Of a stretch of DNA of 64,000 nucleotides, positions 48,380 through 59,149 are shown in pieces (position 1 is the stretch's first letter; every line of letters starts with the position of its first letter). This stretch comes from Trichobilharzia regenti. Lineage: Eukaryota > Platyhelminthes > Trematoda > Strigeidida > Schistosomatidae. The translations under genes and the position numbers were made by a program. The notes beneath the pieces were generated by a model. It was given only the letters and a program-made list of their open reading frames with translations. It had not been told where the DNA came from and ran no database searches. Location: assembly GCA_944472135.2 (NCBI GenBank), contig OX235270.1:71557168-71621167 (forward strand), given 5' to 3'.

Positions 48380-48660
48380 TGTTCATCAACTGAAATGCCG
48401 CTCTGATATAATGACCTTCGAAACACAAGTCTAGTATCCAATATCCAATATCCTGATGACGAGCTAGTATAAACCAGTGATTTCTTTGAGCTCGCTTCTT
48501 GATTGTGAGGTAGAGGTTCCAGATCTTCGGTGAGCTTCTGCGTAGTAAGTCCCGACACTCGACTGCTTTAGCTCTGGTAGACTCCAGGAGGAGTGGTGCG
48601 GGGATTGGTCGAGATGTGGTTTGTAGTATGCAGTATGTTAGGACTGTATTGCTGCCGTGA
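48380..48660 (-). repeat. Dispersed repeat directly upstream of the helicase start
   Basis: On the minus strand CAGAAGCTCACCGAAGATC, AAGAAGCGAGCTCAAAG, TATACTAGCTCG and TCGAAGGTCATTAT correspond to the stretch at 58020-58230. It lies immediately 5' of the helicase ATG and downstream of the CR1 3' end. Confidence 0.7.
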
Positions 48661-48871: not shown

Positions 48872-51706
48872 TTATGAGGATAAGCCATTGAGACACAAAC
48901 CTTGCATTTCTGCATGATTGTCTAGCTTCCGCTTAAAAATCTCCACAGATGGCGCTGTAGTCACGGCCGCCGGTAAAGCGTTCCAGAGACGGCAAACACG
49001 AAGCGAAAAGAAATGTGATCGCACTCGAGTCTTTGGTCTCTGGTGTGCTATCCTTAGCGGGTTACCTCGTGGAAGCCTATAATCGCTTAATGGCAGGATG
49101 CTTTTATTTGGGTGGGCCTGGTCATTTAGGATCTTGTAGACGGTGATGAGGTCTCCCCTGTGCCTACGGTAACTGAGTGTGAAAAGACCTAATTTCTTTA
49201 GTCTTTCCTCATATGATTTGTTGCGGAGGCCGATCACCCATTTTGTCGCTCGTCTCTGGACACTTTCTAGAATGTTAGCATCCCTTTTGAGTAGCGGAGG
49301 TGCAATGATATTATGCACCTCAAGGTGTGGCCTCACATATGCCTTGTATAGCCTTAAGAACAGTTCGGGAGTGAGAGCTCCCAGCTGCCTGTGCATAAAG
49401 TGTAATGTTGCGTAGGCTTTGGCGACGTCCCTCGAGTAATTTCCACTGGTGTCTAGCTTTTCTGTTAGAATAAGACCTAGATCACGCTCTGATGGAACAC
49501 AACTCAAGTTCTGGCCACCAAGGGTGTAATTTACACTCTGTGACCTGCCGGAATGAAGCTGCACTACTTTGCACTTCTTTAGATTGAAAGGCATTCCGTT
49601 AGCCAAAGCCCAATTTCCCAGAGTTTGCAGGTCAGCCTGCAATCTATCTGAGTCTTCCGATGAGTTTATTGCTCTCCAAATCTTTACGTCGTCAGCGTAA
49701 AGAAGCGCAGAGCAGTTTAGTTGGGGGGGCAGGTCATTGATAAAAATCAAAAACATCAACGGCCCTAGGATAGAACCCTGAGGAACCCCTGATGCCGAGG
49801 TGTGCCAAGATGATCGGATGCGGTTGACTTTGGTGCAGAATTCTCTCTCGCCTAAGTAATCTGTCAGCCATGCGAGAAGTGCTCCAGAAACTCCCGCCTT
49901 GCCTATTTTGTGAAGGAGCAGACCATGGTGAACTGTGTCGAATGCTTTCGCAAAGTCGAGAAAGATCACGTGGGCTGGTACCTTTTTGTCCCAGGATAGT
50001 GTCCAATCGTTCCAGGCTAGTAGAAGATTCGTCACGCAGGATCTTCCCCTCCTGAAACCGTGCTGTGCTTCGTGAAGAAGGTTAGTCCCATCGAAGTATT
50101 TTCTCATGTGGTCGTCAATGAGACTTTCCAATATCTTCGATACCACTGGAAGTAGAGCAACTGGTCTGTAACTGGTCACATTCTGCCGGTCACCACCCTT
50201 GAAGATAGGGGATAGGATTGCACGTTTCCATTCACATGGAAGTTTCCCTACATCAAGGGAGTGTTGGAACAGATCACTTAGGGGTTGACAGAGACTTTCT
50301 GAACACTGCTTCAGGACAGATGGTCTGATGCCATCACAACCTGGAGACTTTCCCGAAGCCAACCTTCCCAATTTTGCAAGTACCATAGCCGGGGTAATTT
50401 GAAATGTCCCCAGCAGGTTTTCGTGTGTTGGTTCTGCGATGTAATCTGGATGTTCTGTAGGGGTAATATCCTCGTTACTATTTAGTTGCCTGTGAAAGGC
50501 TAGGCTGAATGTCTCTGCCATTTCAAGACTAGTAAGAGATTTCCCATCAGAACCCACTAGATTGCATGCTCCCTGGTTGGTCGGTTTTCTTTCGGCCATA
50601 AACCTGTATAGGCTTTTGGGGTTCACGAGAAGCTTATTGGCGAGGTCTCCCTGAAATGTCCTTCTATCGCTCCGGACTCGTATGTTACATCGATTCCTGA
50701 GTTCAAGGTACACTTCATATTCGGGTTGACTCTTCGATCGTCGCCACGCGAACCAGGCTTTACGCTTTGCCTGCAGAAGGCGTTGTGTCCCTCTTTTCAG
50801 CCATGATCGTTGCTTCCTAGCTTTTGGTGAGACTAAAGGAACAGTGTCTGAGACCGCCTGGTGAATGATCTCCTTTACCACTCTCCAGTGTTCTTCTACT
50901 GTTAGCTCTGTCCATTTTTTAGGCCAGTTTGCTTCAGACAGAAGTCTTCGCATTTTGGTAAAGTTGGCTTTGTTATAACACAGATAGGGCTGTGTATTGT
51001 CCCACTGTAAGCGCTCGCGGAGGACTATGTCGAATACTATGACCGCGTGGTCACTACTACCTATGGGAGTCGTGATCTGAACGTTTTCCACTAGTAGCTG
51101 GTCACTAGTGAGCACGTAATCCAGTCTAGAAGACTTCCCATCAGGGCCCCATCTAGTATCCATCTTGACATTTTCAGTGAATCCAGCCTTCCTGATGGTA
51201 TGCAGCAGATTTCGATCAAATCTATCATGGGCTTTTCCCGACACCAAGTTAAGAGATGGGGCATTGAAGTCACCAGCTATGACAATTTGATCATAACCCA
51301 TGTCTTGAGTCGCTGAAATTGTATTTAGCAGTACCTGGTTGTGGTCTGCTCCACATGAAGGTGATCGATAAATGCTGCCCACTAGATATTTGCAGTACCC
51401 AACGGTGAAGTGGCACCATATGGAGTCAGGGAGCTCTGTGAGGGGAGGGTCCGTCGCGTGAACACATCTGAGCTGTTTGTCGACGTATATGGCGACTCCA
51501 CCTCCTTCTTTCAGGTCCCTATCTCGCCTGACTAGGACCATATCATTTATACTGACTTCGCTGTCTGCCACCGTAGGGGTTAGCCAGGTTTCCGTCAGTA
51601 TTATGATTTTGGAGTTTAGTTGTGATTGTAGGTGTCTAAGTTCAGCTATTTTGCCTCTTAGCCCTCTCACATTACTATACAGGCAACTGGTAGTCAGTCT
51701 CACCAC
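48872..51706 (-). CDS. CR1-clade LINE ORF2: APE endonuclease plus reverse transcriptase
   Basis: An uninterrupted 944-codon frame. The N-terminal APE-type endonuclease shows YSNVRGL, ILTETWL, IAGDFNAP, LDYVLTS and SSDHAVI. The reverse transcriptase shows SPIFKGGDR, SYRPVALLPV, QHGFRRGRSC, FLDFAKAFDTV, GVPQGSILGPLMFLIF and the catalytic YADD, followed by a thumb and C-terminal region. All active-site residues are present. The first listed codon is GTG. No ATG precedes the endonuclease, and the frame is open back into ORF1 in the -1 frame, so expression by frameshifting is likely (see findings). Confidence 0.9.
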   Translation of the reverse strand: MVRLTTSCLYSNVRGLRGKIAELRHLQSQLNSKIIILTETWLTPTVADSEVSINDMVLVRRDRDLKEGGGVAIYVDKQLRCVHATDPPLTELPDSIWCHFTVGYCKYLVGSIYRSPSCGADHNQVLLNTISATQDMGYDQIVIAGDFNAPSLNLVSGKAHDRFDRNLLHTIRKAGFTENVKMDTRWGPDGKSSRLDYVLTSDQLLVENVQITTPIGSSDHAVIVFDIVLRERLQWDNTQPYLCYNKANFTKMRRLLSEANWPKKWTELTVEEHWRVVKEIIHQAVSDTVPLVSPKARKQRSWLKRGTQRLLQAKRKAWFAWRRSKSQPEYEVYLELRNRCNIRVRSDRRTFQGDLANKLLVNPKSLYRFMAERKPTNQGACNLVGSDGKSLTSLEMAETFSLAFHRQLNSNEDITPTEHPDYIAEPTHENLLGTFQITPAMVLAKLGRLASGKSPGCDGIRPSVLKQCSESLCQPLSDLFQHSLDVGKLPCEWKRAILSPIFKGGDRQNVTSYRPVALLPVVSKILESLIDDHMRKYFDGTNLLHEAQHGFRRGRSCVTNLLLAWNDWTLSWDKKVPAHVIFLDFAKAFDTVHHGLLLHKIGKAGVSGALLAWLTDYLGEREFCTKVNRIRSSWHTSASGVPQGSILGPLMFLIFINDLPPQLNCSALLYADDVKIWRAINSSEDSDRLQADLQTLGNWALANGMPFNLKKCKVVQLHSGRSQSVNYTLGGQNLSCVPSERDLGLILTEKLDTSGNYSRDVAKAYATLHFMHRQLGALTPELFLRLYKAYVRPHLEVHNIIAPPLLKRDANILESVQRRATKWVIGLRNKSYEERLKKLGLFTLSYRRHRGDLITVYKILNDQAHPNKSILPLSDYRLPRGNPLRIAHQRPKTRVRSHFFSLRVCRLWNALPAAVTTAPSVEIFKRKLDNHAEMQGLCLNGLSS

Positions 51707-51768
51707 TTCCCCGTATTGGGGGGTAGTTGACTTGATATTGGCTATCGGTTGAGGAGTTATCCTACGAA

Positions 51769-53169
51769 CTAGTTGGCCGATTCCCCAGGAACCGGCCTGT
51801 TGGCGTTTTTTTCTTCTAGTTCAGTTGGAGCACTCGGATGACACTGGCTATCATCGTCCGTGCTGCACCGCTGTAGTGTGACTAGGGGTTGAGGATTTTC
51901 TTTTACTACGCTTTGTTCTCTCCTTTGAGTGCGAGGCCGGCTCTCGCAGCAGCGAATGTGTTTGCTGACCTTGTCCTTGGTCTCGTACCATCTATGGAGA
52001 GCGGTAGTCAACTGGTCTTGGGAGCTGAACTTGACAGCTAACAGACGTGGCGAGTTAATTGACATAAGATGAGTGGGTCGAGGCAGTCTATAAATAGAGA
52101 CAGCCCCTGAACTTCCCAGGGCCATCTGGGATGCTAACCATCTCCATTGTTGTACATCATGACAATGCTTTTCGCAGGCGTTCCCAGTTACCAGTTCGGG
52201 AATGCCATGCACAACCATGGAGGCAGAAGGAATGAGCTCTGGCGACTCCCTCGCCATTTGTCTTTCCTTCCACGGCCTGTCTGGCTTAACACGTATGTTA
52301 CAGGCCCTCCCTATAGAAAGGACTTGAGAAGCCAGTAACACTTTTTCAACATCCTCGGTAGAGCTCAATGTTACCCTCAGTGGGGATGGTTTGCCTTCAG
52401 GTGCAGCAGTGCCCCTATACAATCTGCATAGATTTACTGGTTGGATGTCCAAACCCAGTGTGCTACTTAAGATGGACCACTGTTCCTGATCAAATAGGGC
52501 CCTATCTTTCAGCAGACTACTGCTACAGTCTGGTACATTAAAGAGGATTACACAATTTGATCTGCTAACCGTGGGCTTGGGCTCGGTCCTCGCACGTTTG
52601 TGATCACCTTTAAGACCGTTTTGGTTTGGCTGGTGCGACTGGGTATTTTTATGTGTCTCAGTGCTAAAGCCAGCATTACTGGTAGACGGTTGGGGTCTTT
52701 TTCCAACGACGGAAACCCGTGGTTCTCCAGCCTCTGTGTCTGGAGCGGTTATGGCAAGAGTTACAAGTTTAACCGGTGAGGATTTTGGTATCCCCGGTTT
52801 ACTCGCGTTTGTACTAACTTCCGGATTGGTGGGGGTCGAGCTTTTCACCTTTTTCCCCGCTACTTCTGTGCCACCTTTAGTTTTCAAAGGACTACGCGAG
52901 GCTACATCAGGACGGCAACTCGGGCATATGTACCAGAACCATTGGCATGGGTTTTTACGCATAAAGTCATAATATGCTTTTGGTACCCCACTGTCGCATC
53001 TGCAATGCACCCATCGGTTGCAAAAGTTACATTCGAAGGCAGAGTCTGCTTGTTCGACAACAGAAGCACAGACCTTGCAGTCGTCTGTCTTCTTGGGGAG
53101 CGTTCTTGTCGTCTTGCGACGTCGTGAACGTTTCTTTTTGGCCTTCCTATTTGTTTCATGGTCTACCAT
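51769..53169 (-). CDS. CR1-clade LINE ORF1 with PHD-like zinc finger
   Basis: About 466 codons from the ATG at 53169; the frame is open upstream to 53253 without another ATG. After a basic stretch (KKKRSRRRKTTR) there is a C4HC3-like finger: CKVC, CNFC, WVHCRC, CPSC. PHD-like fingers occur in ORF1 proteins of CR1-type elements and are thought to bind nucleic acid or protein. The rest is Ser/Pro/Thr-rich with an RNA-recognition-like segment. The frame is uninterrupted, which points to a young copy. The stop is TAG at 51771-51769. Confidence 0.85.
   Translation of the reverse strand: MVDHETNRKAKKKRSRRRKTTRTLPKKTDDCKVCASVVEQADSAFECNFCNRWVHCRCDSGVPKAYYDFMRKNPCQWFWYICPSCRPDVASRSPLKTKGGTEVAGKKVKSSTPTNPEVSTNASKPGIPKSSPVKLVTLAITAPDTEAGEPRVSVVGKRPQPSTSNAGFSTETHKNTQSHQPNQNGLKGDHKRARTEPKPTVSRSNCVILFNVPDCSSSLLKDRALFDQEQWSILSSTLGLDIQPVNLCRLYRGTAAPEGKPSPLRVTLSSTEDVEKVLLASQVLSIGRACNIRVKPDRPWKERQMARESPELIPSASMVVHGIPELVTGNACEKHCHDVQQWRWLASQMALGSSGAVSIYRLPRPTHLMSINSPRLLAVKFSSQDQLTTALHRWYETKDKVSKHIRCCESRPRTQRREQSVVKENPQPLVTLQRCSTDDDSQCHPSAPTELEEKNANRPVPGESAN
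51775..51811 (-). promoter_or_regulatory. Candidate -1 ribosomal frameshift signal (heptamer plus hairpin)
   Basis: On the minus strand, ORF1 codons GAA AAA AAC contain the heptamer A AAA AAC in the X XXY YYZ register (51811-51805). A 7-nt spacer (GCCAACA) is followed by a 10-bp stem, GGCCGGTTCC with GGAATCGGCC, including one G-U pair and a TGG loop (51797-51775). The ORF1 stop comes just after. Slipping by -1 enters the ORF2 frame with no stop before the endonuclease domain. Confidence 0.7.
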
Positions 53170-53429
53170 GGGGATGGGTGTTATGAAGTTCTCACTTAGT
53201 GCAATTTTCCCACTCGGATCTGTTAACCTAGTCGTGTTAACAGTAGTAAACAAAACACTAAAACATTTTCAACACATCAAATTCAGATATTCTTTGGATA
53301 TTTATAATTATGACCACTTTATTTCAGATTCGTGATCTATGTTTAGTGGTCAACTGCACCTTCTAGACCTACAACCGCAACGACTTTGCAAGGGGAGTGA
53401 ATATGAGGGCTGGACTTATTCGTCACGTA

Positions 53430-57860: not shown

Positions 57861-58230
57861 AATTCATTTTAACAGCAACAGAAACAAAAAGTGAGGTGAA
57901 ACGCAACATTTGTGAACAATACGCAACAAGATAAGTCGTGTATAACGGCAGGATAAACGGAACAACAAACGCGTACACGAAGAGCTACGGAACTGCAATC
58001 CAACATGGCCGACTGATATGGACGAAAATGACCTTCGAGCGTCTCACTCCACCAATGACCTTGATAAGTTACGGATAATTTCAGCCGAATATGAGGCTGG
58101 ACTTTTCCAATACCCAATATAGTTTTTACGAGCTAGTATAAGCCAATTTGATTTCCTTGTGCTCGCCTCTTGTTTGTTAGGTATAGGTTCCTGATCTTCG
58201 GTAAACTTCTGCGTAGCTGGTCCCAATATA
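57861..58230 (-). repeat. Dispersed repeat upstream of the unidentified gene
   Basis: Minus-strand text runs CAGAAGTTTACCGAAGATC, AACAAGAGGCGAGCACAAG, TATACTAGCTCG, TCGAAGGTCATTTTCG, CGGCCATGTTGGATTGC. The first half matches 48380-48560. It lies about 300-650 bp 5' of the ATG at 57574, in the same orientation as the copy before the helicase. Confidence 0.7.
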
Positions 58231-58249
58231 TGTCATGTTTAGCTGAAAT

Positions 58250-59149
58250 TTCGCTTGGAAATTTTTGTCGATAAGTTTTAATAAAATTCTTGTTCTACGT
58301 TATCTGGATTTATGTGAATTCTCATTTCCTGAACAGTAATGTTGGTGTCTGCGTCATGTGATCCGACTGCGACACACTTAGCATATTGGTTGCATTGATT
58401 GGTGCTTCAGATGGACTGTGTCAAAATAGCGCTATACTGAGCAAGCTGTGATAGTTGGAGGGTAATGTCATCTACACAGATAGTCTTATTTATATAGAAG
58501 CTGCACCTTTCGGTATAGTATAATTAGATCAAGACTTTACCTCTCAGGATAATAATTCAGCCTATTTTCTTGCGAAGAACAGTCCTTTTTGACAAAAGAA
58601 TGGTACCAGTACTTGCAATTCACCTGTAAATGCTAGCAGAATCTTCTGTGGGAACCTAAGTTACCATGCAGATGTGCTTTTCACTGTATCTGTGGTTGGA
58701 TGAGAAAATTTATCTCTAAGTGGATTTAATATATAGTTGCATTGATTGGCACAGTGCAATATGGGCTGTGTGAATTCAGTGTATGAAAATATCTCAACTT
58801 TATCAATATTGTGCCATTGTCCGCTTAGCTGATTGACAGGGTAACAGATGTAGGTGGTTCTCATGATTGCTGCAAGTGCAGTGGAGAAGATAATTACTAG
58901 CTTAAATTTACTGACTGTTCCACTTGGCGCAGTACTTCAGTGCATAGTATTATTGTACGCATGGACTGTTTTGATTATGAGAACTTAATGAAGTCAGCTC
59001 TATTACTATCAATCTACTGTCTGTTATACCATTCTCACTGACACTGCAAACTTAATGCTGCAATGTTTTTGATCATCAGAAGTGAAGATGAATTTCTCCT
59101 GAAATTTCCATCTACATGAAGCAGTACAGATGCAGTGTTACGATTGAAT
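58250..59149 (+). repeat. 0.9-kb dispersed repeat, copy 2
   Basis: The partner of 53430-54370 in direct orientation. It ends where a Penelope-like C-terminus begins (59150), in a continuous run. This suggests that the repeat may be part of, or the target of, a Penelope-like element. Confidence 0.8.

Follow-up and report, generated by a model that had tools for sequence, protein, structure and literature searches.

The overlap of ORF1 and ORF2 in a CR1-like LINE of Trichobilharzia regenti is very probably a -1 programmed ribosomal frameshift cassette, a reading that draws on sequence comparison between families. The element lies on the minus strand of a 64,000-nucleotide stretch of contig OX235270.1, referred to here as the window. 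The anatomy of the junction, the absence of an ATG from the start of ORF2 and the conservation of the arrangement across families are directly observed. In the proposed mechanism, ribosomes translating ORF1 would pause at a hairpin while AAA-AAC is decoded, and some of them, with an efficiency that like the slippage itself we infer, would slip one base back on A AAA AAC and go on into ORF2. Slipped ribosomes would make a predicted ORF1-ORF2 fusion carrying the endonuclease and reverse transcriptase, and non-slipping ribosomes would end at the TAG and yield the ORF1 protein alone.

Anatomy of the element and its ORF1/ORF2 junction

The features of the window copy are as follows.

51769..53241, minus strand: ORF1, 5'-truncated, with an in-frame ATG at 53169 and a Cys/His-rich region near the N-terminus
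51823-51821, minus strand: TGA closing the ORF2 frame upstream, 9 nt 5' of the heptamer
51811-51805, minus strand: slippery heptamer A AAA AAC (AAAAAAC), ORF1 register GAA AAA AAC, kept in the sister family
51804-51798, minus strand: spacer GCCAACA, 7 nt, its length and 4 of 7 letters kept in the sister family
51797-51788, minus strand: 5' stem arm GGCCGGTTCC, 9 of 10 letters kept in the sister family, the single change still pairing
51787-51785, minus strand: loop TGG, 3 nt, none of its 3 letters kept in the sister family
51784-51775, minus strand: 3' stem arm GGAATCGGCC, 10 of 10 letters kept in the sister family
51771-51769, minus strand: ORF1 stop TAG, 3 nt 3' of the stem
48872..51820, minus strand: ORF2, endonuclease and reverse transcriptase, 982 codons, ATG-free before codon 94
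51539..51541, minus strand: first ORF2-frame ATG (codon 94), inside the endonuclease domain
48435..48448, minus strand: 3'-terminal short tandem repeat (TTGGATA)n, end of the element

Coding content and 3' end place the element with the CR1-like LINEs. ORF2 matches PF03372, PF14529 and PF00078 above cut-off, giving the AP-type endonuclease and reverse transcriptase expected of the CR1 clade. CR1-clade elements end in short tandem repeats, not poly(A), and GGATATT-type repeats terminate the window copy and two of three other copies read; L148, the third, stops a little short of this, in a short repeat of related sequence. An AP endonuclease and reverse transcriptase in ORF2, a Cys/His-rich ORF1 and a short 3' tandem repeat are also shared with the CR1-like LINEs (Jockey superfamily) treated in the accessible part of PMC4120745. 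A Pfam scan of ORF1 returned no family at E 0.001; the window ORF1 (466 aa from its internal ATG) is 100% identical to a T. regenti UniRef protein named PHD-type, and the ORF1 of a relative, P0128, matches Pfam PHD slightly under cut-off. The first-pass annotation had called this copy intact, which is wrong: the window element is 5'-truncated, its homology to three fuller copies beginning at about 53243, and those copies carry extra 5' sequence and further ORF1 codons beyond this limit. The ORF1 frame spans 567 codons in 91 of 97 places scored and 499 in the window, flank included (counted by hand). Elsewhere in the window, at 58106-59149, stretches resembling 54364-53454 (76%) and the 3'UTR part 48553-48437 (82%) are found near each other and may represent a relative with a deletion or some other repeat.

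The window ORF1 ends ...GAA GAA AAA AAC GCC AAC AGG CCG GTT CCT GGG GAA TCG GCC AAC TAG. A AAA AAC is the slippery heptamer of MMTV, and spacers at -1 frameshift sites usually measure 5-9 nt. Here the heptamer stands in the zero frame, and a hairpin, putatively stimulatory, follows 7 nt downstream; it has 10 pairs, one of them G-U, and a 3-nt loop, with the TAG 3 nt beyond, all as the first-pass annotation had described. Its further description of ORF2 also stands: the frame is at -1 relative to ORF1, is open across the heptamer and back into the ORF1 3' end, and has no AUG of its own before the endonuclease. The open frame starts at 51820, and its first ATG, at 51541, falls within the Pfam match to residues 49-258. 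Counting as heptamers all in-register X XXY YYZ with Y = A or T and a last base other than G, A AAA AAC is the sole instance among 466 window ORF1 codons. The 30-nt stretch holding the hairpin folds at -18 kcal/mol (z -4.2), and none of 200 shuffles is equally stable; within a 76-nt stretch z is just -2.1, and 5 of 200 shuffles are as stable.

Two established routes to ORF2 were considered and dropped. Stop-start is ruled out by the missing AUG at or after the ORF1 stop: no stop-start or AUG-reinitiation signature is present in the window copy, in which the first ORF2-frame ATG comes 228 nt past that stop. Translation starting there, at codon 94, would cut the endonuclease, as the Pfam match shows. 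A 2A StopGo is ruled out because ORF1 and ORF2 lie in different frames and the ORF1 C-terminus, RPVPGESAN, has no NPGP.

Conservation among three families of the same genome

When the genome is searched with the anchors of a pattern fixed and its middle left free, 222 places come up for the family of the window copy (family A), and A AAA AAC is in register in 95 of the 100 listed (counted by hand). Family A copies are young, so this retention says little about selection. The heptamer or stem is broken in 5 of the 100 family A junctions listed, plus L085 and L088; altered junctions are those of L029, L039 (last base T), L054, L085 and L088. Family A ORF2 frames are often of a few discrete lengths (982, 700 and 398 codons), which suggests shared stop codons spread as subfamilies.

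Sister family B, found via a distant endonuclease query (L040, L041), is 70-71% identical in DNA around the junction, which reads ATT GAA AAA AAC TAC AAC GGG CCG GTT CTA TCG GAA TCG GCC AAC TAG in L040, L041 and L069. Between families A and B, identity is 0.71 over 3,320 aligned positions and falls to 0.49 (ORF2) and 0.45 (ORF1) at third codon positions. The heptamer, stem arms and stop are nevertheless identical at 32 of 33 sites, a level reached by one of 3,276 mask offsets, the site itself; the heptamer and arms alone are identical at 26 of 27, which 7 of 3,276 offsets reach. No stretch of unbroken identity in 1,920 nt is longer than the one formed by the 3' arm and the stop. Dual coding in the overlap would alone raise conservation, and the spacer and loop, which lie in the same overlap, serve as the control: only 4 of their 10 letters are kept (Fisher p 2e-4). 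The family B hairpin again has 10 bp and a 3-nt loop, its innermost pair changed from C-G to U-G, and the spacer is again 7 nt. The comparative check that the first-pass annotation had proposed thus came out in its favour, with the heptamer and arms conserved well beyond neighbouring codons and a spacer of constant length and altered letters.

The annotation had also asked for compensatory changes in the stem. The hairpin keeps its shape, but such changes are scarce: one C-G pair became U-G between families, and in L074, a dead copy whose endonuclease is interrupted by a stop, one G-C became A-T. The arms vary so little that there is almost no covariation. The heptamer is in register in 14 of 17 family B junctions read and lost in L070, L078 and L080; in addition, the stem is broken in L071 and the spacer is longer in L081. 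Intact copies lacking the heptamer or stem had been named beforehand as evidence against a frameshift signal; the copies with a broken heptamer or stem that occur in both families look like decaying ones. No junction read in families A, B and C has ORF2 in another frame or an AUG just before the endonuclease; ORF2 is at -1, with its first ATG at codon 94, 91 and 47, respectively.

Family C was found in the same genome with another endonuclease query and is more distant than B, with an ORF2 of 951 codons. Its ORF1 end reads ...AAG GGT TTT CGG GTT GTC..., with the heptamer G GGT TTT in register, the lone such heptamer in 280 family C ORF1 codons examined, and with ORF2 at -1. The first ATG, codon 47, lies ~19 residues past the start of endonuclease homology. 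GGGTTTT is kept in all 14 family C junctions matching a fixed flank pattern, and in L140, outside that pattern, it is kept with a different downstream sequence. Local folding found no strong simple hairpin 3' of the family C heptamer; a downstream pseudoknot, considered by eye, was dropped because the local folds are weak. The family C ORF2 frame opens TAA GGG TTT T, with TAA directly 5' of the heptamer, and that of family B opens TGA AAA AAA CTA, where the stop likewise abuts it. In both families, therefore, the slip site is precisely where the ORF2 frame becomes open; the abutting stop of family C is lost in L135.

The history of family B bears on the main rival to -1 frameshifting. The 3' frame of its ORF1 spans exactly 366 codons in 105 of the 150 closest places and has other lengths in 45 (counted by hand); L040 and L069 share the frame break. 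A full ORF1 frame of 549-550 codons occurs in none of the best 150 family B places scored, and one copy read, L158, has a continuous 550-codon frame. In a separate set of 150 places, 117 have an ORF2 that stays open over 979 codons (counted by hand). Many family B copies therefore stem from a template without a full-length ORF1, and a full-length fusion cannot explain all of the amplification. Frameshifting and this history could be reconciled if translation began internally in what is left of the ORF1 frame and then shifted in the same way, or if help came in trans. Such spread would be easier if ORF2 needed no full translation of ORF1, as when ribosomes reinitiate, or initiate internally, on a non-AUG codon close to the junction, with the A-run and hairpin serving that process or merely coinciding with it. 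SART1-type stop-start and L1-type reinitiation are known models (accessible parts of PMC5972666, PMC2881922 and PMC5009743), and reinitiation or non-AUG initiation ranks as the main rival; we nevertheless consider it unlikely. There is no ORF2-frame ATG until codon 94 in the endonuclease and no stop-start overlap, and this explanation accounts neither for the conserved in-register heptamer and fixed 7-nt spacer nor for the stops abutting the heptamer in two families. For this family, these comparisons of heptamer, arms, spacer length and missing ATG support the earlier proposal of an ORF1-ORF2 fusion that would arise by -1 frameshifting.

Junctions in relatives from other animals and flukes

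A scan of prokaryote genome contigs found 42 loci that encode relatives and apparently stem from animal DNA contaminating metagenome-assembled genomes. The N-terminus was inspected at 24 of the 42: three have a -1 overlap (L091, L094, L122), ten an in-frame stop (L092, L093, L095, L096, L097, L099, L101, L109, L112, L113), and 11 an AUG or an ambiguous arrangement. L112 could be read with a 117-aa frame in a -1 layout lacking an in-register heptamer or with a 97-aa frame in a same-frame layout, and was grouped with its relative L109 (in-frame stop). Repeating the ORF1 protein search with an alignment returned the same 7 proteins, genome searches with the endonucleases and ORF1s of other families mostly returned families A and B, and a viral-contig scan with the ORF2 alignment gave 187 pattern matches and no relatives. 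For the repeat labelled family D (L133, L136, L151, L152), the stretch read shows no ORF1.

Among the -1 loci, L094 has a 445-codon ORF1 frame and an ORF2 at -1 that is ATG-free in the stretch checked; its only in-register heptamer, G GGA AAC, falls inside the 8-codon overlap, and the downstream sequence folds more weakly than most shuffles. The only in-register heptamer in 163 codons of L091 is T TTT TTA. A 9-bp hairpin follows it (z -2.1, 7 of 200 shuffles) at 11 nt, a spacer longer than the usual 5-9, and a later in-frame ATG could be used by ORF2. In L122, G GGT TTT is one of three in-register heptamers in 311 codons, and an ATG lies just before the endonuclease.

These junctions also bear on slippage of another kind, in which the A7 run would slip at transcription or reverse transcription and a subset of RNAs with one extra A would encode a single-frame fusion. 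The run does sit at the junction, and copies with a changed run exist: it is one A shorter in 3 of the 100 family A junctions listed and one A longer in none listed. We regard this explanation as very unlikely, since G GGT TTT of family C and G GGA AAC of L094 keep the same layout without a long homopolymer and the hairpin would have no role.

Recurrence of -1 overlaps was weighed against coincidence. Across families A and C, L091, L094 and L122, 5 of 7 in-register heptamers fall in the overlaps, which make up 86 of 1,665 codons (P 6e-6); with L122 left out on account of the ATG just before its endonuclease, the figures are 4 of 4 in 60 of 1,354 codons (P 3.5e-6). The -1 lineages are not monophyletic in a midpoint-rooted tree built in a single FastTree run from 56 ORF2 proteins, none of them a named CR1 reference. 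The probability of a heptamer in a 16-codon overlap is ~6% at the background rate counted; if this were coincidence, two frames would merely overlap, with a heptamer and stem there by accident and no recoding at all. Such a coincidence is scarcely credible in view of the single matching mask offset, the hairpin unequalled by shuffles and this recurrence in several lineages, and a -1 frameshift signal is the reading retained.

Lys-Asn, which is what AAA AAC encodes, occupies the heptamer position in the ORF1 C-termini of four distinct relatives, including one from Schistosoma turkestanicum. In P0124, P0127 (S. turkestanicum) and P0128 (30% identical) it follows a variable stretch and lies 9-13 residues short of the C-terminus; these fluke ORF1s are represented by their protein sequences.

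A different layout is seen in 'Plut' Poribacteria contigs, where a single UGA separates the ORF1 of LINEs (362-491 codons) from an ORF2 in the same frame. The UGA lies just before the endonuclease with no ATG between, as TGA CTA at L093:1474, L096:1522, L097:1437 and L101:1087, and TGA CTC separates same-frame ORF1 and ORF2 at L099:1227 (all positions 0-based); we take these five to be readthrough-type contexts. At L113:1643 (0-based), a 443-codon ORF1 frame and ORF2 share one frame and are parted by UAG CAA CUA, which fits a tobamovirus-type readthrough context. Zinc-knuckle-like ORF1 ends followed by an in-frame UAG G, with no ATG before the endonuclease, occur at L109:415 and L112:291 (0-based).

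Recoding in LINEs: precedents and meaning

The junction shares with canonical X XXY YYZ -1 sites, such as those of retroviral gag-pol, a zero-frame heptamer, a 5-9 nt spacer, a downstream hairpin, an enzyme ORF at -1 and an upstream ORF whose stop comes just after. It differs in lying between ORF1 and ORF2 of a non-LTR element, in having a short hairpin and no proven pseudoknot, and in being known from sequence alone. SART1, L1 and the trypanosome element L1Tc face the same problem of expressing an enzyme from a two-part RNA, and the accessible part of PMC5972666 gives UAAUG stop-start, reinitiation and 2A, respectively, as their solutions for ORF2. The first two require an AUG located at the ORF1 stop or beyond it and the third a 2A in one frame, both of which are absent here.

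Recoding as such is not a new idea for the non-LTR class. For Paramecium elements, the part of PMC5405496 available suggests +1 frameshifting or reinitiation for ORF2 in two groups and readthrough of the ORF1 stop in a third, and names no slippery heptamer or hairpin; these elements form a ciliate clade of their own, and their shift is +1, whereas that proposed here is -1. HeT-A, at Drosophila telomeres, is a non-LTR element whose protein needs a frameshift, according to the accessible part of PMC5009743, which judges novel initiation likelier for LINE ORF2. The HeT-A shift concerns a Gag-like protein in an element with no reverse transcriptase and, unlike the present case, is not a switch from ORF1 to reverse transcriptase. 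The word 'frameshift' is absent from the main text of PMC4120745, PMC4316615, PMC3905857 and PMC2881922, and likewise in that of PMC8392823, on trematode CR1; the accessible parts of PMC1925062, PMC7175516, PMC4465651, PMC6875170, PMC5408684, PMC4700185 and PMC5014426 contain no LINE ORF1/ORF2 -1 signal. Our search, which lay largely outside the subscription and older literature and does not establish absence from print, turned up no account of a LINE with a -1 cassette of heptamer and hairpin.

A broader proposition, which we hold to be possible and somewhat short of probable, is that Gag-Pol-style recoding is a common and repeatedly evolved route to ORF2 in CR1-like and related animal LINEs. 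Fusions would be made at a set ratio either by a -1 frameshift on one of several interchangeable heptamers (A AAA AAC, G GGT TTT, G GGA AAC, T TTT TTA) or by readthrough of a single stop (UGA CUA in four contigs, UGA CUC in a fifth, UAG CAA CUA in L113). LINEs need ORF2 protein in a suitably small amount, and the long-standing question of how they achieve this has mostly been answered with reinitiation. A conserved cassette would give CR1-like elements the retroviral answer, in which the ratio of ORF1 to ORF2 is set by a measurable signal, and would predict an ORF1-ORF2 fusion protein and offer an easy way of testing further LINE families by sequence.
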